From: Oceanospirillaceae bacterium
GTDB lineage: Bacteria > Pseudomonadota > Gammaproteobacteria > Pseudomonadales > Balneatricaceae
Direction: 5' to 3'
Assembly: GCA_013215505.1 (NCBI GenBank)
Contig: JABSQZ010000026.1
Coordinates: 1 to 64,000 of the forward strand
Length of the DNA: 64,000 nt
The notes under the pieces were generated by a model, which worked only from the letters and a program-made list of their open reading frames with translations, was not told the DNA's origin and ran no database searches. Every line of letters starts with the position of its first letter. Within the stretch, counting starts at the first letter, position 1. Below, piece by piece: positions 30,140-40,145 of this stretch. Made by a program: the position numbers and the translations under genes.

Positions 30140-30517
30140 AACTCTTCAAGTCTGCTGCACTGTTGAATGACCGGATATCACGACGGATGTGTGAACTCAC
30201 CCAAGCGAAAGCTGATGCCACTTACAGCAAAGTGCTAAAAGGCATCGCCAAGTTTGATTTACTGATACTAGACGCCTGGGGATTAGATCCACTAGCGAAA
30301 CGATCTGATGAAAATAATGGACGATTCCCACAGCAATGCCTCTGTCGTCATTATCAGCCCATTAGCCACTGAACAATGGCTTGAAATGATTGGAGATAAC
30401 AGGCTGGTGGACGCCATTTTAGATCGCATAATGCATAGCGCCCATCCTATAAAATTGCAGGGAGAATCCATGCGAAAAAAATTAAATTCCTTGACCCATG
30501 GTGAACACTTAAGTTAA
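30140..30517 (+). pseudogene. istB: IS21-family istB remnant
   Basis: Two adjoining frames together read like the C-terminal half of an IS21-type IstB ATPase. The first (to about 30300) gives ATYSKVLKGIAKFDLLILDAWGLDPL, the Walker B region usually read as TDLLILDDWGL. The second (from about 30320) gives ASVVIISPLATEQWLEMIGDNRLVDAILDRIMHSAHPIKLQGESMRKK, the typical IstB end. A frameshift near 30300 and the missing N-terminus, istA and inverted repeats show a dead element. It lies at the left edge of the GC-rich block. Confidence 0.85.
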
Positions 30518-30632
30518 AAAACAGACAGGCCAATGCAGTGGATGAATAGGTGTTCACCTTCGCCGGAATGTGCAGTAGGGCCCGAACTTGCCGATGCTGG
30601 GCTTAATATAGAATATCGATCTGGGATCTTAT

Positions 30633-32159
30633 ATGTCGCAACAAGTATTGATAGATGGACCGATCAGTTGGAGGGATATCGCCAGGGTGGCCGAGGGTAC
30701 TGCTATCAGCCTGAGTGAATCACGCTGGGCGGGGATCCGAGAAAGCCGCGCAGCAGTTATGTCTATGGTCGACAGCGGTCAGCGCGCTTACGGGGTGAAT
30801 ACTGGTCTGGGCGACCTGTGCAACCACCTTCTGGACGCCGATCAGCTCGGCCAGATGTCACGCGGTACTATTCTCAACCACGCCTGTGGGGTCGGGCCAC
30901 TACTGGAAAAACGTCAGGTGCGGGCCATAATGGCCGCGGCGTTAGTAAACTTCAGTCAAGGTTATTCGGGCCTTTCATTAGCTGTTGTCGAGGCGCTGAT
31001 GGCGATGCTCAACCGGGACTTAACACCTCAAGTTCCCAGCCTGGGCTCGGTGGGTTATCTGAGCCACATGGCCCACATTGCTTTACCTTTGCTTGGGGTC
31101 GGGGAGGTAGAATTTAACGGGGGGGTTATGCCCGCTTGCGAAGCCATGCGCTTGGCGGCTATCCAACTGCCTGAACTGGGTGCTAAGGATGGCCTGAGCC
31201 TGGTCAACGGCACCCCTTGCATGACGGGCCTGGCCTGTTTAGTGGCGGGGGATGCCGAACAGCTGATGGACTGGGCGGATATCGGCGGGGCGCTGAGTTT
31301 TCAAGCCCTGGGCGGCCAGCTAGCGGCGTTTGGCGAAGCTAACCTGGCGCTCAAAGGGTCGGTCGAGGTAGTGAAGGTAGGGTATAGGCTCCGGTGCCTG
31401 CTGGCCGATAGTCCCTGGCTGGCCAGCCAACAGAGCCAGCGCACCCAAGATGCATTGAGCCTGCGTTCGATGCCGCAGATCCACGGTGCCTGTCGGCAAC
31501 AGTGGCGGCATTTTTGCGCGGTTCTCGATGGCGAGCTGAGCGGTGCCAGTGATAACCCGCTTATCATGAAAGATGCACAAGGCTATCGGGTGGTCTCCCA
31601 GGCCAATCCCCATGGGCAGGGCCTGGCGCTGGCCTGCGATGCCCTCGCCCCGGCACTGGCGGAACTTGGCTCAGTAGCCGAGCGGCGCAGCTACCGATTG
31701 CTTTATCCGCAGGTCAGTGGCCTGCCAGGTTATCTGACCGACCAGGGCGGAATCAGCTCTGGGCTGATGATTGCACAATACACCAGCGCCTCCTTATGCG
31801 CCGACAACCGCCGTTTAGCGCAGCCGGTATCGGTGGATAATTTTGTCACCTCAGGGCTACAGGAAGACCACCTGAGTTTTGGTACTAGCGCTGCGCTGCG
31901 CTTGTTTCCGATGCTGGACAATGTGCGACGGGTGCTAGCAGTGGAGCTCTTTTGTGGTGCCCAGGCATTGGATTTCCTGGACTCTGACGGGCAGCGCTTT
32001 TCGCCAGCTGGGACAGCTATCTGGCGGCTAATTCGTCTGCGGGTGCCACACTATACTTGCCAACGTTGGATTGCCCCGGATATTGCCCAGGTCGAAACGC
32101 TATTGCGTGATGGTCGAATACTGTCTGAAGTTGAACAAGTGGCGGGACTGGTAAATTAA
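30633..32159 (+). CDS. HAL/PAL-family ammonia-lyase homologue lacking the MIO triad
   Basis: 508 residues, homologous along its length to histidine ammonia-lyase. Family motifs are retained: YGVNTGLGDL (about 53), TILNHACGVG (about 80), SLVNGTPCMTG (about 189), GASDNPL (about 305) and LQEDHLSFGTSA (about 410). Two catalytic features are missing. GSVG-ASG-DLAPLAH of true lyases is here GSVG-YLSHMAH (residues 138-148), so the Ala-Ser-Gly that cyclises to the MIO cofactor is deleted. The catalytic Tyr of QD-x-YSLR is Leu (QDALSLR, L275). The frame is otherwise intact, which suggests retained function without classical deamination. It is GC-rich compared with gabT. A paralogue accompanies hut genes in pseudomonads, but I cannot compare it here. 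Confidence 0.88.
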   Translation: MSQQVLIDGPISWRDIARVAEGTAISLSESRWAGIRESRAAVMSMVDSGQRAYGVNTGLGDLCNHLLDADQLGQMSRGTILNHACGVGPLLEKRQVRAIMAAALVNFSQGYSGLSLAVVEALMAMLNRDLTPQVPSLGSVGYLSHMAHIALPLLGVGEVEFNGGVMPACEAMRLAAIQLPELGAKDGLSLVNGTPCMTGLACLVAGDAEQLMDWADIGGALSFQALGGQLAAFGEANLALKGSVEVVKVGYRLRCLLADSPWLASQQSQRTQDALSLRSMPQIHGACRQQWRHFCAVLDGELSGASDNPLIMKDAQGYRVVSQANPHGQGLALACDALAPALAELGSVAERRSYRLLYPQVSGLPGYLTDQGGISSGLMIAQYTSASLCADNRRLAQPVSVDNFVTSGLQEDHLSFGTSAALRLFPMLDNVRRVLAVELFCGAQALDFLDSDGQRFSPAGTAIWRLIRLRVPHYTCQRWIAPDIAQVETLLRDGRILSEVEQVAGLVN

Positions 32160-32193
32160 AATCGCACTAGATAAGCACCGAAGGAGGTTAACG

Positions 32194-32373
32194 ATGTTTG
32201 AATTACAGTTATCTCCAGGCACCCTGAATCTATCCCAATTGTGCCAAATCAGCCGTCTGCGGGTGCGCCTGAATCTGCTGTCTACTGGCGACGGTCAAAT
32301 CGGTCAGGACAACCTGTTTTTTGATCAAATTAACAGTCACCGCTTGGGTAATACCCAAAATGTCCACCGCTAA
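32194..32373 (+). pseudogene. hutH: Remnant of a hutH 5' end
   Basis: Behind an excellent ribosome site (AAGGAGG, seven bases before ATG) lies a 59-codon frame starting MFELQLSPGTLNLSQLCQIS. This fits the N-terminus of true histidine ammonia-lyases (L.L.PG.LTL.QLR.I), and the spacing of conserved hydrophobic residues continues to about residue 45. The remaining 450 residues, including the MIO region, are absent. It follows the MIO-less homologue by 34 bases, so two hutH-like genes were once in tandem. An unrelated small gene is the alternative reading. Confidence 0.6.
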
Positions 32374-33153: not shown

Positions 33154-34011
33154 TTAACCTGGCCCCACTTCCATATCTCGGCAGATCTGGGCGGTTTGGT
33201 GGGGTAATAAATGAGATATTCGAACCATGTGGTCGAAGTGTTTTGAGAGACCGCTGACCTGCTCGCTGCCAGTAACTACTAAGTAACTGCCGCCCAGGTA
33301 GACCACCGCTCTTTGATTTCCAAATACGGTTAGTGGCGCGGAGTAGTGTTTGAGTCGGTCGTAAAAATACACCCTCAGGGTGGGGTAGTGGCTGTCGATT
33401 AGGTCGGCCATGTAGTCCAGCTGTTTAGCGCGCAGGTGTTTTGGAATACCTGCCCAGATGCCGTAGCCCTGTGCTAGCTCTTGCAATGCTTGCACCGGCA
33501 GACAAATTTCCAGGTCGTTGCCACGTTTTTTAACATCGTGCAGCAGTTCTTCGCCGAAGCTGTAACGCGAGGAGGCCCGGTGCGGTTCCAGTTCTTGGTT
33601 GACCAACTCCGGCAAGCTGAGCATATCGGGCAGGTAGGCAGGTATGTAGCGGGTTTTGCCGCCGCTGATTTCTTCACGCCACTGGGTCAGAGGCGAGCGT
33701 TGGGCACTGTCGTCGACCAGCTCGATGGCGCTGCTGCTGGCAATCTGCTGGCTACCGTCTTTGGCGCCGACCGCGCCCAGTAACCAGTCTATCGAGACTC
33801 CCTGGGCGCTGGCGATGCGCATCAGCGCTTCGGCTCTGGGAAGGCGCAGGTTGCCTGGGTCGAGAAACTGACTCATGGCGGATCGGTCCAGCTGGCATTG
33901 ACGGGCGAATTCGCTGGGGTTTAATCCCGACTGCTGTAGCAACTGCTGCAAACGCTCCCGAAATACCGGGGCGATATCACGTTTATCCATGGTTTTTTTA
34001 AATCCTTTCAT
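33154..34011 (-). CDS. XRE-family regulator with C-terminal sensor-like domain
   Basis: 285 residues. A helix-turn-helix of XRE type lies near the start (LQQLLQQSGLNPSEFARQCQLDRSAMSQFLDPGNLRLPRAEALMRIASAQGVSIDWLLG, about 16-75). A linker of about 40 residues and a C-terminal domain of roughly 165 residues follow, which I do not recognise and which may sense a ligand. The start is uncertain: ATG at 34011 or, more in line with the basic HTH start, at 33990. It is divergent from the desaturase gene across a 166-base AT-rich gap with an inverted repeat, so it probably controls that pair. Confidence 0.85.
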   Translation of the reverse strand: MKGFKKTMDKRDIAPVFRERLQQLLQQSGLNPSEFARQCQLDRSAMSQFLDPGNLRLPRAEALMRIASAQGVSIDWLLGAVGAKDGSQQIASSSAIELVDDSAQRSPLTQWREEISGGKTRYIPAYLPDMLSLPELVNQELEPHRASSRYSFGEELLHDVKKRGNDLEICLPVQALQELAQGYGIWAGIPKHLRAKQLDYMADLIDSHYPTLRVYFYDRLKHYSAPLTVFGNQRAVVYLGGSYLVVTGSEQVSGLSKHFDHMVRISHLLPHQTAQICRDMEVGPG

Positions 34012-34087
34012 TCACTCTTGTCACATAAATACAGCAAAATAGTGTTTAAATGATTAAATCCTATATAAATTGTACAAGCAAGATTTA

Positions 34088-34121
34088 GGTGTAAATAAAG
34101 TATAAGAATTACAAATACACC
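34088..34121. promoter_or_regulatory. Candidate operator between XRE gene and desaturase
   Basis: GGTGTA (34088-34093) and TACACC (34116-34121) form an inverted repeat with 22 bases between, inside the AT-rich divergent promoter region. It is a plausible site for the adjacent XRE protein, by position only. Confidence 0.45.
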
Positions 34122-34177
34122 AATAGCGTGCTTGAAGCTGCCGGCCTACTCTGACGTTACTTACTAAGGAGGAGTGC

Positions 34178-35110
34178 ATGAGTTCAAAGACCAAGCTGGG
34201 TATCGAATGGCCAACCCTGGCACTGATTATAGGCTGTTATTTACTCTGGCTACTGGTGCTGTATAACCAGGTCAGTTTCGTTCTGGTGTGGCTGGCGCTG
34301 CCGTTGTTATTGGCATTGCACTCATCTTTGCAACACGAAGTACTACACGGCCATCCAACCCGCTGGGCTGCCTTTAATGAAGCGCTGGTATTCATACCCC
34401 TGGGGGTGTTTTTACCCTACCAGAGGTTTCGTGATTTACACTTGATCCATCACCGTGACGAACATCTCACGGATCCTTACGCGGACCCGGAAAGTCACTA
34501 CCAGGATCCACAGCGTTGGCAGAAACTGCCCACTGCGTTGCGTGATATATATAGCTTTAATAACAGCCTGGTGGGGCGTATGTTGGTGGGTCCGGCACTG
34601 TCGATATGGCTGGGCTATAAGGCCGATACCCGAGCCATGCTGGACGGCGACGCGGAGGTAGTTCGCGCTTATGGGCTGCACCTTGTCGGCCTGGTGGCAA
34701 TGCTTTGGTTGTTATCTGTCTGGCAGATTAACCTATTAGCCTACCTGTTGGTTGCCTATCTGGCCTTGTCGATCCTGAAAATTCGGACCTTTCTGGAGCA
34801 TCGCGCACACTTTTCGGTGGCGGCGCGCACCGTGGTGGTTGAAGACCGGGGGCTGCTGGCGCTGTTGTTTTTGAATAATAATTTCCATGCGGTACACCAT
34901 CAGCATCCAGGGGTAGCCTGGTACCGGTTGCCAGGCTTGTATTACGCTGATCGGGCGGCCTTTCTGGAGGCCAATCAGGGATACCGATACGCCAGTTATC
35001 GGGAAGTATTCAGCGAGTACTTGTGGCAGGCCAAAGAGCCGGTTCAGCACCCGCAGATGGTGCCTCCTGGCAGTGATGAGGTTCAGGCAGGCGGGGAAGC
35101 TCGATTATGA
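34178..35110 (+). CDS. Membrane fatty acid desaturase family protein
   Basis: 310 residues with four or so hydrophobic segments and the three His boxes of the membrane di-iron desaturase/hydroxylase family: HEVLHGH (about 52), HLIHH (about 88) and HAVHH (about 239). Members insert double bonds or hydroxyl groups into lipids at the inner membrane using oxygen. Behind a near-perfect ribosome site (AAGGAGGAG). The substrate is not evident: no desT, lipid carrier or electron donor gene is adjacent. It overlaps the downstream PhnD-like gene by four bases (ATGA), so both products are made together. The region is GC-rich, unlike the flanking core genes. Confidence 0.88.
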   Translation: MSSKTKLGIEWPTLALIIGCYLLWLLVLYNQVSFVLVWLALPLLLALHSSLQHEVLHGHPTRWAAFNEALVFIPLGVFLPYQRFRDLHLIHHRDEHLTDPYADPESHYQDPQRWQKLPTALRDIYSFNNSLVGRMLVGPALSIWLGYKADTRAMLDGDAEVVRAYGLHLVGLVAMLWLLSVWQINLLAYLLVAYLALSILKIRTFLEHRAHFSVAARTVVVEDRGLLALLFLNNNFHAVHHQHPGVAWYRLPGLYYADRAAFLEANQGYRYASYREVFSEYLWQAKEPVQHPQMVPPGSDEVQAGGEARL

Positions 35111-35943
35111 TCGCCCAGTTACCTATGTACGACTGGCCGGAGCTGCGAGACCCGCATGACAGGCTATGGCAGCGCCTGGGCGAAGCCTTGCGCGATTACT
35201 TACCGACCCCATACCCGGTACCTGAACGTTTAAGCCGTAGCGACGATCCGTTTAAACAGTGGCTTAGCACTGAGCTGCTGCTCGGCCAGACCTGCGGCCT
35301 GCCATTCGCACAAAGCTTGCACGAGCGGGTTAGCTTGCTGGGCAGCCCCTGCTATCAACTGGATTGTGAGCCGGGAGATTATTACAGTGTGCTGTTGTTG
35401 GCGCCCGGTTTATGCGTCGAAGACTATACCTGGCTGCTGGCAGCGGGTGATCGTGTGGAGCCGACTAAAGCGGGTCTGCACGGGGTGGTCAATGCCCGGG
35501 ATTCCCAATCCGGCTACTCAGCACTGCTGCACAGTTTACTGGCCGGTGGCCTGACTGGTTTGAGCCTGTCCGGCAGTCACCGCCGTTCAATTCAATTACT
35601 GGCTGAAGGCCAGGCCGAGATAACCTGCATCGACGCGGTTAGTTGGGCCCTGGCAAAGCGTTATGAACCCGCCGCCCAACAATTACAAGTGTTGGGGCTG
35701 AGCCAACCTACCCCTTGCCTGCCCTGGATCAGCGCCCAGACCCAGCACCGCCGAGCGATAACTCATGCTGTGCAGCAAACGCTTCAGAGCCTGGACAGTG
35801 ATGTAAAAGAAAGCTTATTGCTGACAGGATTTAGGCTTCGCCAAGCGCAGCAATACTTGTATCTGGCTCCCCGGCTACTCCAGAATGAGCAAAAACACAA
35901 CGCCGGTGACTTGTTTGCGAAGGATACTTTGCTGGTTGGGTAA
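35107..35943 (+). CDS. PhnD-like solute-binding fold protein, apparently cytoplasmic
   Basis: 278 residues resembling the phosphate/phosphonate-binding (PhnD/PF12974) fold: YYSVLLLAPG, GLHGVVNARDSQSGYSALLHSLL (the DSQSG loop that normally holds the ligand), LSGSHRRSIQLLAEGQAEITCIDAVSWALAKR and GLSQPTPCLPWI. It begins MIAQLPMYDWPEL and has no signal peptide, so it is probably not a classical periplasmic binding protein, and no phosphonate permease or ATPase is nearby. It is coupled by overlap to the desaturase gene. A ligand-sensing or carrier role inside the cell is possible but unproven. Confidence 0.8.
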   Translation: MIAQLPMYDWPELRDPHDRLWQRLGEALRDYLPTPYPVPERLSRSDDPFKQWLSTELLLGQTCGLPFAQSLHERVSLLGSPCYQLDCEPGDYYSVLLLAPGLCVEDYTWLLAAGDRVEPTKAGLHGVVNARDSQSGYSALLHSLLAGGLTGLSLSGSHRRSIQLLAEGQAEITCIDAVSWALAKRYEPAAQQLQVLGLSQPTPCLPWISAQTQHRRAITHAVQQTLQSLDSDVKESLLLTGFRLRQAQQYLYLAPRLLQNEQKHNAGDLFAKDTLLVG

Positions 35944-37051
35944 TGCCGTTCGTAAGTTCCTTAATATCAATAATGGGCTTGGTTCCTCACTAGCATGCTA
36001 CATGGTATCAATGCTTTCTTTGCAGGACCGCCGTTAACACCTCCGCTCTAACAGAGGTTTGATGGACTTCCCCTGGCTGTATCAAGAGTGAATGCTCTGC
36101 AGCCCCTTTATCTGCCAGACTCTAACGCTTAAGTAAGGGTTTCAAGAACAGTCCCGTATATGAGTGATCATCCGCCGCCACTTCCTCCGGGGTGTCTGTG
36201 GCTATGAAAAGGCCGCCCTTAGGATATATAGACTTAAGCATTATTTCAGAGGTGGTACCTCTGAGCGGGGTAAAGATGACTCGTGCCCGCGTGCAACAGG
36301 TCTGTTGCGAAGACACCCCTTACTAGCGCTGCATATCACCCGTGGTCAGGAAGGGTTTTCTCTGTGGTTTTGTTAAATTCACTCAGCAAAACGATTAACA
36401 TCGACGACAGTGGATGTTAGATAAATTGGCACAAATAAACGCTGTCTTTTGTATCGACGCTTGTGCCTCTGCCATTATGTCAAACCACTATCAACTTTGC
36501 TGCTAGCTACATAGTTCAAGCTGAAATATCCCCCAGCACTTTAACTAAACCCTTTGTTATTGAGTACAAAAGTATCATTAACCAGTTGTTTAGGGGAATT
36601 TAACACTGCTGTTTAAGGTATATAGAGACTGATTAATTTTTTTCTGCTCATAGGCGCTAAGCCGCTTAGGTGCAGACTTGCTGATAGTTTTTCTGTGGCT
36701 GCAAACTGATCCTGTATTGATCTGTACTGTTGTGACGAGGGCGACATTAAGGGAGTGTTAATTGTTATCTGAACTATTTTTGTGCAATGATACAAAGGTT
36801 AGTGTGTGAATTATAAGCACTAGTCACTCTTGCATGGCTATTGTTTAAGCCGGTACGGTTTTAGAAACAGTAAGTTAATTACTATTGCTTACTCGTAGTG
36901 AAAAATTGTGCATATAGTGTTTGAATGCTGATTCGAGAGTTCAATTGCAGTCATTATCTATGCCAGTGCGCGTCTTATACTGGCACTGAATGTGTCTGAT
37001 AATAATAACAAGAGTTTTGCTCTTCGCGATAAATAATACATGGAGTTTATG
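35944..37051. other. Gene-poor stretch before the ABC transporter
   Basis: About 1.1 kb whose only recognisable content is a uvrA tail on the minus strand at 36122-36226. Beyond 36.3 kb composition drops back to AT-rich. No intact gene or clear repeat is seen. The promoter of the transporter probably lies near its end, but no consensus pair is convincing. Confidence 0.5.
36122..36226 (-). pseudogene. C-terminal remnant of a second uvrA
   Basis: The minus strand encodes YPKGGLFIATDTPEEVAADD and then HSYTGLFLKPLLKR before a stop codon. This matches the end of UvrA proteins (GGxIIATGTPEEVA..SxTGxFLKPLL). Nothing upstream on the minus strand continues the homology. It differs from the tail of the intact uvrA at 21 kb ([20 protein letters not shown]), so it comes from a different uvrA gene rather than a recent copy. 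Confidence 0.75.
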
Positions 37052-38056
37052 ATGACATTTTCATCTATTACCAAACGAACACTGTTAACTGCAGCAATAG
37101 TTTTATCTTCTTCTCAGGTTTGGGCGCAATGTGGCACCGTCACTATTGCTGAAATGAATTGGCCCTCCGCTGAATTCGCTGCCAACCTCGATAAAATAAT
37201 TCTAACCGAAGGTTATGGTTGCAACGTCGAGTTAGTCCCTGGTGCCACCAACACTACTTTCGCCTCGATGGAAGCTAAGGGGCAGCCGGACATAGCTCCG
37301 GAGTTTTGGACCAATGCAGTGACAGTGAGAATGAAAGCTGCCGAAGAAAAAGGCGACCTGACGGTTGGTGTACAACTAGTATCGGATGCCTCTGAGGGGT
37401 GGTTTATTTCTGACGCAATAGCTAAGGCGCACCCAGAACTTAAAACCGTGGCTGACGTGTTGGCGCACCCTGAGTTATTCCCCAGTAAAGAGGATTCCTC
37501 TAAGGGGGCCTTTATGAATTGCCCTTCGGGCTGGGGTTGTGAAACGGTTAACACAAATTTGGTTAAAGACAGTGCCTTCAACTTTGCCAAGGCCGGTTTC
37601 GATGTTATTGATCCGGGTTCTTCATCGGGTCTGGATGGAGCCATTGCCAAAGCTTCGCAAAGAGGAGAGGCGTGGTTTGGCTACTATTGGCAGCCGACGG
37701 TGAATGTCAGTAAATATAATTTGAAAAAATTGGATTTTGCCACCAGCTTTGACCAAAAACATTGGGATGATTGTCTGGTCAGCGAGGATTGCGAAAGTCC
37801 ACAGCGCTCCAGTTGGACGAAGTCAAAAGTGAATACAGTCGTAGTGACTAAATTTGCCCAAGCCAATCCAGAGGTTATGGAATATCTGAACAAACGTACT
37901 TATAGCTCGGCTCAGGTAGGACCGACGCTGGTATATATGGATGAAAACCAAGCCAATGGTGAAGATGCTGCCTACGAATTTCTGAAAGCTAACCAGGATC
38001 TTTGGTCTGCCTGGGTACCTGCAGACGTTGCCGAAAAGATTAGAAAGGCACTCTGA
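37052..38056 (+). CDS. ABC transporter solute-binding protein, ProX/HutX type
   Basis: 334 residues from the ATG nearest GGAG; two more in-frame ATG lie just upstream. A signal peptide ends at about residue 26 (VWA-QC). The mature part resembles the glycine betaine/choline/histidine-binding OpuAC family: VTIAEMNWPSAEFAANLDKIILTEGYGC, DIAPEFWTNAV, GSSSGLDGAIAKASQRGEAWFGYYWQPT and the C-terminal NQDLWSAWVPADVAEKIR. Trp and Tyr residues could form an aromatic cage for a quaternary amine. The pattern CGTVTIAEMNW is shared with binding proteins of hut-linked transporters as well as betaine systems, so substrate is open. It leads the three-gene transporter set. Confidence 0.85.
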   Translation: MTFSSITKRTLLTAAIVLSSSQVWAQCGTVTIAEMNWPSAEFAANLDKIILTEGYGCNVELVPGATNTTFASMEAKGQPDIAPEFWTNAVTVRMKAAEEKGDLTVGVQLVSDASEGWFISDAIAKAHPELKTVADVLAHPELFPSKEDSSKGAFMNCPSGWGCETVNTNLVKDSAFNFAKAGFDVIDPGSSSGLDGAIAKASQRGEAWFGYYWQPTVNVSKYNLKKLDFATSFDQKHWDDCLVSEDCESPQRSSWTKSKVNTVVVTKFAQANPEVMEYLNKRTYSSAQVGPTLVYMDENQANGEDAAYEFLKANQDLWSAWVPADVAEKIRKAL

Positions 38057-38208: not shown

Positions 38209-38227
38209 ATTGCCAGAGGTAGATGCA

Positions 38228-39115
38228 GTGAGTTGGTCAGAATTTCCCAGTATGTCCAGAACAGATTTACGCAGTTTACGTAGATCTATTGATGAGAGCT
38301 TTCGAGACTTTACCCAAGAATACGGAGAGAGTTTAGAGAGATTTTTTGATCCGTTACTTGAATTCCTTATTTTCAGTGAAAGACTGTTGCTCAGTACTCC
38401 CTGGCCGCTGATGATCGCGATTTGTGCCGCTCTGGCTTTTCTGGCCAGTCGCAGTTGGAAAATTGTCCTCGGGGTGTTAGTGGCCTTTATCCTGATAGGC
38501 TATCTGGGTATGTGGCAAGATACCATGCGCACCTTATCAATCATCACTGTTTGTACTATGGTGGCCATTGCCGTGGGCATTCCTATAGGCATCGCTATGG
38601 CGCGCTCCAACAAATTACAGGCGCTTATCTCACCGGTATTAGATGTGATGCAAACTATGCCTAGTTTCGTCTATTTGATCCCGGTAGTGATGTTATTGGG
38701 TATAGGCAAAGTACCAGGGCTAATAGCCGTGATCATCTATGCTTTACCCCCTATAGTACGACTGACCAACCTGGGGATACGCCAGGTGGACCCGGATGTT
38801 ATAGAAGCTGCCGATGCATTTGGTTGTAGTAGCTGGCAAAAGTTGGTAAATATCCAGATGCCATTAGCACTGCCGTCAATTTTTGCTGGCGTTAATCAAA
38901 CCATCATGATGTCGTTGTCGATGGTGGTCATCGCCTCGATGATCGGAGTGAAAGGTTTGGGGCAGCCAGTGTTAAAGGCCATTACCAACCAGTATTTCTC
39001 AATGGGTTTGCTGAATGGCTTTGCTATTGTCGCAATCGCTATAATATTTGACCGGGTTTCCCAGCAATACGGAAGGCGGATACAGCTGCATCGCCAGGGT
39101 GATCACAATGGATAA
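38228..39115 (+). CDS. ABC transporter permease, ProW/HutW type
   Basis: 295 residues from a GTG start eight bases behind AGAGGTAG; the TTG at 38210 is a less likely alternative. A cytoplasmic N-terminal stretch of about 60 residues is followed by six or so membrane segments. The inner-membrane-component motif EAADAFGCSSWQKLVNIQMPLALPSIFAGVNQ is the ATPase-contacting loop. The MARSNKLQ and TMPSFVYLIPVVMLLGIG segments are typical of the OpuAB/ProW family. It pairs with the ATPase gene, which overlaps its end by eight bases. Confidence 0.93.
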   Translation: MSWSEFPSMSRTDLRSLRRSIDESFRDFTQEYGESLERFFDPLLEFLIFSERLLLSTPWPLMIAICAALAFLASRSWKIVLGVLVAFILIGYLGMWQDTMRTLSIITVCTMVAIAVGIPIGIAMARSNKLQALISPVLDVMQTMPSFVYLIPVVMLLGIGKVPGLIAVIIYALPPIVRLTNLGIRQVDPDVIEAADAFGCSSWQKLVNIQMPLALPSIFAGVNQTIMMSLSMVVIASMIGVKGLGQPVLKAITNQYFSMGLLNGFAIVAIAIIFDRVSQQYGRRIQLHRQGDHNG

Positions 39116-40145
39116 GCTTAAACAGCCGAAGATAAAAATAGTTAACTTGTCTAAAGTATTTGGCAGGGCGCCGAAAAAAATGCTGCAGTTGGTGCAGCAG
39201 GGAATGGATAAAACCGAGCTATTGACCAAGCACCGGCATGTACTTGCACTGGATAACATTAATATGGAGCTGCAAGAGCACTCTATTGAGGTGATTATGG
39301 GGTTGTCGGGCTCTGGTAAGTCAACGTTAATACGCCATATTAATAGATTGATAGCCCCAACGGTGGGGGAAGTGTTGGTCGATGGAGAAAACATCTGTGG
39401 CATGAGCGCGACTCAACTGCGGCGCTTCAGGCAGAAAAAGACCGCTATGGTGTTTCAGAACTTCGCCCTGCTACCGCATCGTACCGTGATAGATAACATC
39501 AGTTTTGGCTTGCAGGTACAAGGTCAGAGTGAAGCTCGGATAAAACGCAGCAGTCACTACTGGCTGGAGCGGGTTGGATTGACTGGCTATGAAAAACACT
39601 ATCCCGCCCAACTCTCCGGCGGGATGCAGCAACGCGTGGGGTTGGCCAGGGCGCTGGCCTGTGATGCCGATATCCTGATGATGGATGAAGCCTTTAGCGC
39701 CTTAGACCCACTGATTCGCTCTGATATGCAAAACATATTGCTCGAGCTGCAGACCGAGTTGAAAAAAACCATTGTATTTATAACCCATGATTTGGATGAA
39801 GCGTTAAAAATTGGTGACCGTATCGCGATTTTAAATCAGGGCAAGTTAATTCAGCAGGGCACTGCTGACGATATCTTACTGCACCCAGCAGACGACTACG
39901 TGAGAAGATTTGTCGCTGATGTTAATCGTACCGGTGTGTTGCGGGCCCGCTCGATAATGGATGTAAAAATACAGTCCAATCCGGATTTCAGCAATACAGT
40001 GGTCGTTAAAGAAGACGACACCGTCAGGGAAGTGCTGCACAGTATGTTGAGTGCCGACTCTTATAATGCGTTGGTCACGAACCAGAATGGTAAGGCTGTA
40101 GGGCGTATTGATTCAGAGATGTTGGCGGCAGCGGTCAACAATTAA
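39108..40145 (+). CDS. ABC transporter ATPase, ProV/HutV type
   Basis: 345 residues from MDKLKQPKIKIVNLSKVFG; the start overlaps the permease end. It carries Walker [10 protein letters not shown] (about 76), Q-loop FQNFALLPH, signature LSGGMQQRVGLARA, Walker B ILMMDEAFSALD and the switch His (FITHDLDEA). An N-terminal extension FGRAPKKMLQLVQQGMDK is typical of ProV/OpuAA proteins. The C-terminal 80 residues form a CBS-like regulatory region (VVKEDDTVREVLHSMLSADSYNALVTNQNGKAVGRI) rather than two clear CBS domains. Related ATPases act in osmoprotectant or histidine import. Confidence 0.95.
   Translation: MDKLKQPKIKIVNLSKVFGRAPKKMLQLVQQGMDKTELLTKHRHVLALDNINMELQEHSIEVIMGLSGSGKSTLIRHINRLIAPTVGEVLVDGENICGMSATQLRRFRQKKTAMVFQNFALLPHRTVIDNISFGLQVQGQSEARIKRSSHYWLERVGLTGYEKHYPAQLSGGMQQRVGLARALACDADILMMDEAFSALDPLIRSDMQNILLELQTELKKTIVFITHDLDEALKIGDRIAILNQGKLIQQGTADDILLHPADDYVRRFVADVNRTGVLRARSIMDVKIQSNPDFSNTVVVKEDDTVREVLHSMLSADSYNALVTNQNGKAVGRIDSEMLAAAVNN

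Follow-up and report, generated by a model that had tools for sequence, protein, structure and literature searches.

What does a protein do that resembles a histidine ammonia-lyase (HAL, or HutH) throughout and yet lacks the residues that form the cofactor of that enzyme? The question is raised by one gene in a stretch of 64,000 nucleotides, here called the window, from an Oceanospirillaceae bacterium (GenBank assembly GCA_013215505.1, contig JABSQZ010000026.1, positions 1 to 64,000 of the forward strand). The gene is an intact open frame of 508 amino acids at 30633-32159 on the + strand. An earlier examination of the letters of the window (the sequence-only reading) had remarked that its product is missing the Ala-Ser-Gly triad (ASG), from which the methylidene-imidazolone (MIO) cofactor is made. 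We propose that the gene probably encodes an MIO-free lyase that converts hercynine to trans-urocanate and trimethylamine, and thus gives the hut pathway a second point of entry. An imidazole substrate, urocanate as the product, import of the betaine type, the loss of amine activation and the precedent of ergothionase, taken together, suggest such a hercynine lyase.

Altered catalytic motifs of the window gene

The protein belongs to PF00221, which covers residues 12-468 with 479.2 bits against a gathering cut-off of 27.3 in Pfam. Its score with the hutH model TIGR01225, 463.5 bits, lies under the curated cut-off of 539.15; the hutH models are nonetheless its best matches. We aligned the protein to the HutH chains 1b8f/1eb4, which we take to be those of Pseudomonas putida. 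It reads GSVGYLSHMAH (G138-H148) where histidine ammonia-lyases have GSVG-ASGDLAPLAH. Tyr142 alone replaces ASGD, and the alignment runs from residue 25 to the triad without gaps, which agrees with the sequence-only reading that the triad is missing and that no other gap lies nearby. That reading had also placed Leu275 at the position of Tyr280, and so it stands in the alignment; the interval it marked, 31044..31457, spans exactly the motif to Leu275. With small later gaps counted, the P. putida equivalents of Leu275, Pro326 and Glu411 are Tyr280, Phe329 and Glu414, so that the replacement of Phe329 by Pro326 is a third change beyond those at the triad and Tyr280. HutH has the MIO triad, Tyr280 and Phe329, whereas the window protein has none of these three features. 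The substrate features His83, Glu414 and Arg283 of HutH are present as His83, Glu411 and Arg278; more fully, Tyr53, His83, Asn192 and Arg278 correspond to P. putida positions 53, 83, 195 and 283. The gene and the positions discussed below are as follows.

30633..32159, + strand: predicted MIO-free HutH-like lyase (HutH1-type) of PF00221, scoring under the curated TIGR01225 (hutH) cut-off
30789..30791, + strand: codon of Tyr53, retained in the alignment; catalytic base in HAL
30879..30881, + strand: codon of His83, retained in the alignment; belongs to the SH substrate motif of HAL
31044..31076, + strand: G138-H148, GSVGYLSHMAH, with the Ala-Ser-Gly site missing in the alignment
31056..31058, + strand: codon of Tyr142, where HutH has the MIO triad; 22/22 unselected relatives also have Tyr
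31206..31208, + strand: codon of Asn192 (Asn195), retained in the alignment
31455..31457, + strand: codon of Leu275, equivalent to P. putida Tyr280; ergothionase 6s7j has Leu here as well
31464..31466, + strand: codon of Arg278 (Arg283), retained in the alignment; carboxylate role in HAL
31608..31610, + strand: codon of Pro326, equivalent to P. putida Phe329; the family has Pro, Ala or Cys here
31863..31865, + strand: codon of Glu411 (Glu414), retained in the alignment; imidazole role in HAL

A family with the same changes

As an unselected test we searched the proteins of 398 genomes of the phylum without any motif pattern, taking matches up to an E value of 1e-90. The search gave 36 matches besides the gene itself, and the 29 that had loci split cleanly by identity. 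All 22 matches at 42-56% identity carry Tyr in place of the triad, Leu as residue 280 and either Pro or Ala as residue 329, and the ASG triad occurs in none of these relatives at 42% identity or more. All 7 matches at 38-40% identity carry ASG, one of them with QDPYCLR at the 280 motif. Four of the 7 further matches (37-41%) were read and are ASG lyases (L007, L205, L209 and L210; L numbers denote loci and G numbers genomes). A scan of contigs with alignment found at least 513 relatives among 598 stretches, and the best 80 loci were used. YL[ST]HMAH and QDALS[ILV]R are present in 80/80 of these, a count that is biased because the scan pattern itself contains the motif (one of the two patterns was VGYL[ST]HMA). 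The sequence-only reading had asked whether loss of the triad and Leu275 go together in homologues: they do, in 22/22 unselected matches and in the 80 motif-biased loci. Its counter-case, in which the homologues all carry ASG, does not describe the 22 unselected relatives.

Searching 57 genomes, that of the window organism included, gave any match in 30 and two close homologues, both triad-free: L003, from the same genus as the window organism, at 95% identity and L004 at 56-57%. The 27 more distant loci of this search (L005-L031) all have ASG. L032 and L059 of the contig scan lie on the same contigs as L003 and L004. In its own genome (5.73 Mb, 52 contigs) a protein search found one other relative of the window gene, a canonical HutH (L002) with GSVGASGDLAPLAH, adjoining hutU. 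Among 888 plasmid records with a match, 8 were read. The family motif is on plasmids of Rhizobium, Thalassospira, Erwinia and Priestia (Bacillota), two proteins, L158 from Rhizobium and L159 from S. meliloti, belong to the ergothionase type, and L160 and L161 have ASG. The family thus occurs in Proteobacteria and on one Bacillota plasmid; a search of viral contigs found no relative.

The family signature, checkable in any genome, consists of GSxGY(L/I)xH at the triad, QD(A/P)LSxR, replacement of Phe329 and a place on one side of a branch of the tree described below. The window protein has all of these, and the aligned family relatives are 53-57% identical to it (L032, 95%). In four plasmid records the family proteins are annotated as histidine ammonia-lyase, although they are without the residues forming the defining cofactor of that enzyme.

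The substrate pocket

The aligned rows were sorted by their triad letters into family (23), ergothionase-type (3) and MIO (29) rows, and the triad and Tyr142 counts in them are therefore true by construction. Tyr53, His83, Asn192, Gln272, Asp273, Arg278, Gln410, Glu411 and Asp412 are invariant in the 23 family rows, in which His145 is new and likewise invariant. Position 280 is Leu in all 23; position 329 is Pro in 14, Ala in 8 and Cys in 1. Tyr280 and Phe329 do not vary in the 29 MIO rows, a set selected by its ASG. In HAL, Tyr53 is the base, Arg283 handles the carboxylate and Glu414 the imidazole. The residues retained in 23/23 rows, together with the changed triad, 280 and 329 positions, suggest that the residues predicted to handle the imidazole and the carboxylate are kept and that the amine-handling part is rebuilt. 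A cofactor made from the remaining residues was ruled out, since X-Ser-Gly is found at the site in 0/23 family rows.

A catalytically dead HutH paralogue, serving as a sensor, a chaperone or a mixed-tetramer partner in histidine metabolism or transport, would also fit the loss of the cofactor, Tyr280 and Phe329, as well as the strong coupling to transporters described below. Replacements of Phe329 do damage HAL: in the P. putida enzyme, the change of Phe329 to Ala carries a 100- to 2200-fold cost, and with Gly at this position the enzyme is inactive, since no MIO is formed (PMC11432326; papers are cited by their PubMed Central numbers, each from an excerpt). The same source assigns His83 to the SH substrate motif of the enzyme. 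Among PDB entries, the alignments show HAL variants with Ala or Gly at 329, Phe at 280 and Ala at 145. However, the retention of Tyr53, His83, Asn192, Gln272, Arg278 and Glu411 in 23/23 rows goes beyond the needs of binding alone, ergothionase shows that the fold is able to catalyze without MIO, and in one genome (G372) the gene sits in the hut operon while canonical HutH is absent. We consider a dead paralogue unlikely.

A proposed hercynine lyase

From the sequence, its conservation, selection and genomic linkage we infer the following substrate, product and chemistry. The substrate would be hercynine (N-alpha-trimethyl-L-histidine, or histidine betaine), an imidazole compound in which the amine can leave readily as it stands. 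A quaternary trimethylammonium leaves without the MIO electrophile and a primary amine cannot, so the triad could be lost. In this alpha,beta-elimination without MIO, Tyr53 would take the beta proton, Arg278 would grip the carboxylate, and His83 and Glu411 would grip the imidazole. The trimethylammonium would occupy the space formerly held by MIO, Tyr280 and Phe329, now lined by Tyr142, Leu275 and Pro326, and Tyr142 might offer a cation-pi contact. Urocanate would continue through HutU, HutI, HutF and HutG, and the substrate would be imported by the adjoining transporter, be it a betaine-type ATP-binding cassette (ABC) system (HutXWV/ProU class), a polar amino-acid ABC system or a BCCT carrier. 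The sequence-only reading had left ligand binding, regulation and an MIO-free reaction side by side as possible roles, and had not mentioned the ergothionase precedent; the evidence favors the last of the three, as an elimination.

Hercynine is a precursor of ergothioneine. If the proposal is true, it adds a betaine route to urocanate and trimethylamine, and it means that an MIO enzyme can shed its cofactor once the substrate supplies its own leaving group. Among the titles and abstract openings listed in searches of the open-licence part of PubMed Central on hercynine, histidine betaine or MIO-free lyases (15 of 99 in one of them), none described such an activity; a description elsewhere is possible.

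Comparison with ergothionase

Ergothionase releases trimethylamine from ergothioneine without MIO (PMC13405746). The enzyme of T. denticola (6s7j; also Burkholderia sp. HME13) belongs to the same superfamily and has Leu at 280, as does the family. Its triad region is SSIGEGD and its 280 motif LQDPLSFR, and the plasmid lyases L158 and L159 match it best. The ergothionase type has lost one residue of the triad (EGD, QAD or AAD), against three in the window family, and it keeps Phe329, which the window family replaces. Its rows have no Asn in the column of Asn195 (one stands two residues on) and Val in the column of Gln410. Its substrate is a thiolated betaine. Membership of the window protein in ergothionase was ruled out by the weaker match to 6s7j and by the separate grouping of the ergothionase type (100/100).

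An MIO-free lyase for some other N-alkylated or thiolated histidine, either ergothioneine or a further betaine or N-methylated histidine that yields a product which the hut enzymes still process, would use the same chemistry as ergothionase. OpuAC and BCCT transporters take many betaines, and in Thalassospira the gene is followed by one annotated as N-methyl-L-tryptophan oxidase. On the other side, His83, Gln410 and Glu411 are present in 23/23 family rows, whereas the ergothionase-type rows have His83 in 1/3 and Gln410 in 0/3. The ergothionase-type group is separate, and a lyase nearer to it lies by a divergent urocanase-like gene in three genomes, whereas in 18/23 carriers a standard hutU lies no more than 15 kb from the MIO-free gene. 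We give this alternative a limited chance, somewhat above that of the dead paralogue.

The three genomes (G318, G110 and G173) are of one genus, and their lyase, which lies outside the tree, is nearer to ergothionase references at 29-30% identity. It lies about 4 kb from the divergent urocanase-like gene (50-51% identity to the reference, 526-533 bits); a separate contig carries the MIO-free gene. At loci L232, L233 and L234 (three genomes, one genus) the lyase carries GSIGCADIGLMG and QDPLSLR near a divergent urocanase-like gene, and this neighborhood is possibly an ergothioneine-type degradation module. Such an ergothionase-like lyase near a divergent urocanase-like gene, with the MIO-free gene apart, suggests urocanate and not thiourocanate as the product of the MIO-free lyase, and some different product for the ergothionase-like one. 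In two of the three loci there is also an apparent amidohydrolase nearby.

Linkage to the hut pathway and to transporters

All 23 carrier genomes have hutU, against 154/398 overall (hypergeometric P 1e-10, with species not independent). Counted by genera, hutU is present in 14/14 carrier genera against 95/213 (P 7e-6, with relatedness not removed). G314 has a single hutU, which lies next to the MIO-free gene, and keeps its canonical HutH on a different contig. G372 has hutU, hutF, hutI, hutG and the MIO-free gene and no canonical HutH; its three PF00221 proteins are the MIO-free one in the hut operon, one of the ergothionase type and an ASG lyase of another clade. In the same genome (L222, 4513-10112) ergothionase-type and HutH1-type lyases stand about 2.4 kb apart, with an OsmF-like binding protein beside the first and a BCCT carrier beside the second. 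BCCT carriers take quaternary amines.

In Enterobacteriaceae bacterium 89 (L048 / G062) a second hutU lies about 4 kb from the MIO-free gene, and in Rhodoferax (L095 / G064) the only hutU lies about 3.4 kb from it, with an ASG lyase on another contig. Polaromonas sp. P2-4 (L092 / G063) has one PF00221 gene and both hutU genes in several pieces, and its hut genes look broken or misassembled.

An ABC ATPase ends less than 300 bp upstream of the gene (measured between match ends) in 79/80 loci, the sole exception being L032, the relative of the window gene. By best match to references, 71 of these ATPases are of the ProV/HutV type and 8 of the polar amino-acid type. The order XWV-gene-hutH is found in 64 of the 80 loci, and hutU is upstream in 63. 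Ten further regions add other arrangements: hutU-BCCT-gene-hutI-hutG in two (G372 and G117; Pfam E values of 2e-119 and 9e-117 for BCCT), polar ABC-gene-hutU-hutI-hutF-hutG in G314, and ProXWV-gene-hutG-hutU in G421. In G076 and G339, as far as the regions were read, neither hut genes nor such an importer lie beside the gene. On two Alphaproteobacterial plasmids a second HutC is divergently oriented beside the transporter.

HutH1 of P. fluorescens SBW25 occupies the same place, between hutXWV and canonical hutH (PMC8871633). Equating the family with HutH1 rests on synteny; the window copy, unlike HutH1, is outside that hut operon. The excerpt of the same paper assigns HutH1 no activity and states that hutH1 is dispensable for growth on histidine. 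If the proposal is true, it explains this dispensability and gives HutXWV a likely natural substrate. We rate at about even chances the broader claim that HutH1 is a widespread hercynine trimethylamine-lyase with a conserved Tyr at the old MIO place, fed by HutXWV-, polar-ABC- and BCCT-type transporters with histidine betaine as their natural substrate, and an unrecognized bacterial source of trimethylamine. We know of no EgtU-like specificity for the transporters that adjoin the family gene. EgtU, the ergothioneine transporter, is a betaine-class ABC system for a histidine betaine, in which an aromatic cage binds the trimethylammonium (PMC9732360).

The place of the gene in hut operons would also suit a slow MIO-less ammonia-lyase acting on L-histidine (or D-histidine), and an MIO-independent route has been claimed for phenylalanine ammonia-lyase with electron-poor substrates (PMC7247363). 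Yet an MIO-deficient mutant of another phenylalanine ammonia-lyase lost all hydroamination activity tested (PMC12535398), 22/23 carriers (all but G372) already hold a canonical-type HutH, and hutH1 is dispensable on histidine. This alternative appears improbable, distinctly more so than a dead paralogue.

Several points weigh against a hercynine lyase. Five of the 23 carriers have the gene unlinked to hutU (G000, which is the window genome, G076, G173, G339 and G386), and a canonical-type HutH accompanies the gene in 22. The ASG lyase of G372 (L212) might itself deaminate histidine. Against solved chains, the window protein matches 7tqr (E 6.2e-96) and 1b8f (2e-81) better than 6s7j (4.3e-50), and is thus nearer to HAL than to ergothionase; HutH (1b8f, 7tqr), its best match in this comparison, has the imidazole, carboxylate and base residues in common with it. 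At eight of the 80 loci the ABC transporter is of the polar amino-acid kind, which is not betaine-specific. PA5093 of P. aeruginosa may be the second HutH (HutH1) homologue, and if it is, the phenotype of its mutant would fit less simply. PA5093 is called hutG, and the mutant grows poorly on histidine and urocanate (PMC12772324). HutXWV has been described as a histidine transporter (PMC8871633), and the transporter class alone is therefore no proof of a betaine. The constraint on the window gene is looser than on a control hutH, and the family and the ergothionase type are joined as sisters with a support of only 51/18 (both described below). For the window gene itself, context is the weakest part of the argument. 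This copy has left the usual operon, its hutU is on another contig, and the XWV genes (OpuAC, ProW and ProV) start about 4.9 kb downstream.

Selection and phylogeny

Between the window gene and its 95% homologue the ratio of nonsynonymous to synonymous rates (dN/dS) is 0.102, with 28 nonsynonymous and 79 synonymous differences. The control, canonical hutH of the same two genomes, has a dN/dS of 0.020, with a dS of 0.75 against 0.24. The value of 0.10 is far from 1, in line with the sequence-only reading that the fold is kept under selection. In a tree built with the trait columns removed, a branch with a support of 93/86 separates the 23 family rows from all others, so the distinct subfamily that the same reading had suggested is recovered. 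The three ergothionase-type rows group together (100/100), 6s7j itself being outside the tree. The approximately unbiased test does not reject a grouping of the family with HutH (p-AU 0.372). MIO may have been lost once or twice. An earlier tree, with L161 and without the family rows L178 and L183 (the later L227 and L224), gave the family a support of 98 and left the branching order open.

The G+C content of the gene (30633-32156) is 0.589; that of the whole window is 0.467, and the genome's own canonical hutH has 0.527. The gene may therefore come from a donor of higher G+C content.

Decay of the gene, or a mistake of sequencing or assembly in the window, would be consistent with this composition, with the relocation of the gene, with a possible but weak relic of canonical hutH downstream, and with the looser constraint than on the control hutH. 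The frame is intact, however, and the motif recurs in the assembly of the same-genus relative and in 80/80 further loci. One-gene error or decay as the origin of the motif was ruled out by these homologues together with the dN/dS of 0.10, and we regard decay or error as very improbable, the least likely of the alternatives.

The neighborhood of the window gene

Adjacency to a betaine-class or polar amino-acid transporter is lacking for both the window gene and L032; in both, the XWV genes begin about 4.9 kb downstream. The possible importer in the window consists of the following genes.

37040..38056, + strand: OpuAC-type (glycine betaine class) substrate-binding protein, possibly part of an importer, not adjacent to the lyase
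38210..39115, + strand: ProW/ChoW-type permease
39048..40145, + strand: ProV/ChoV-type ATPase; the start is that of a mechanically called open reading frame, and the overlap with the permease may not be real

Between the lyase and these genes, at 33154-35943, lie a putative regulator, a protein of the fatty-acid-desaturase family and a PhnD-like binding protein, and L032 keeps the same order. The regulator reads as a helix-turn-helix protein and has no Pfam or NCBIfam match.

Just downstream of the lyase gene, 32193-32345 (+ strand) encodes 51 residues with weak similarity to the N-terminal end of a canonical HutH (33% identity; E value of 5e-4, for a target of 1.3 kb). The same stretch is seen broken in L003. 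It is possibly a relic of an ancestral order in which hutH followed the MIO-free gene. Upstream of the gene, 30200-30520 resembles a remnant of an IS21-type IstB gene.
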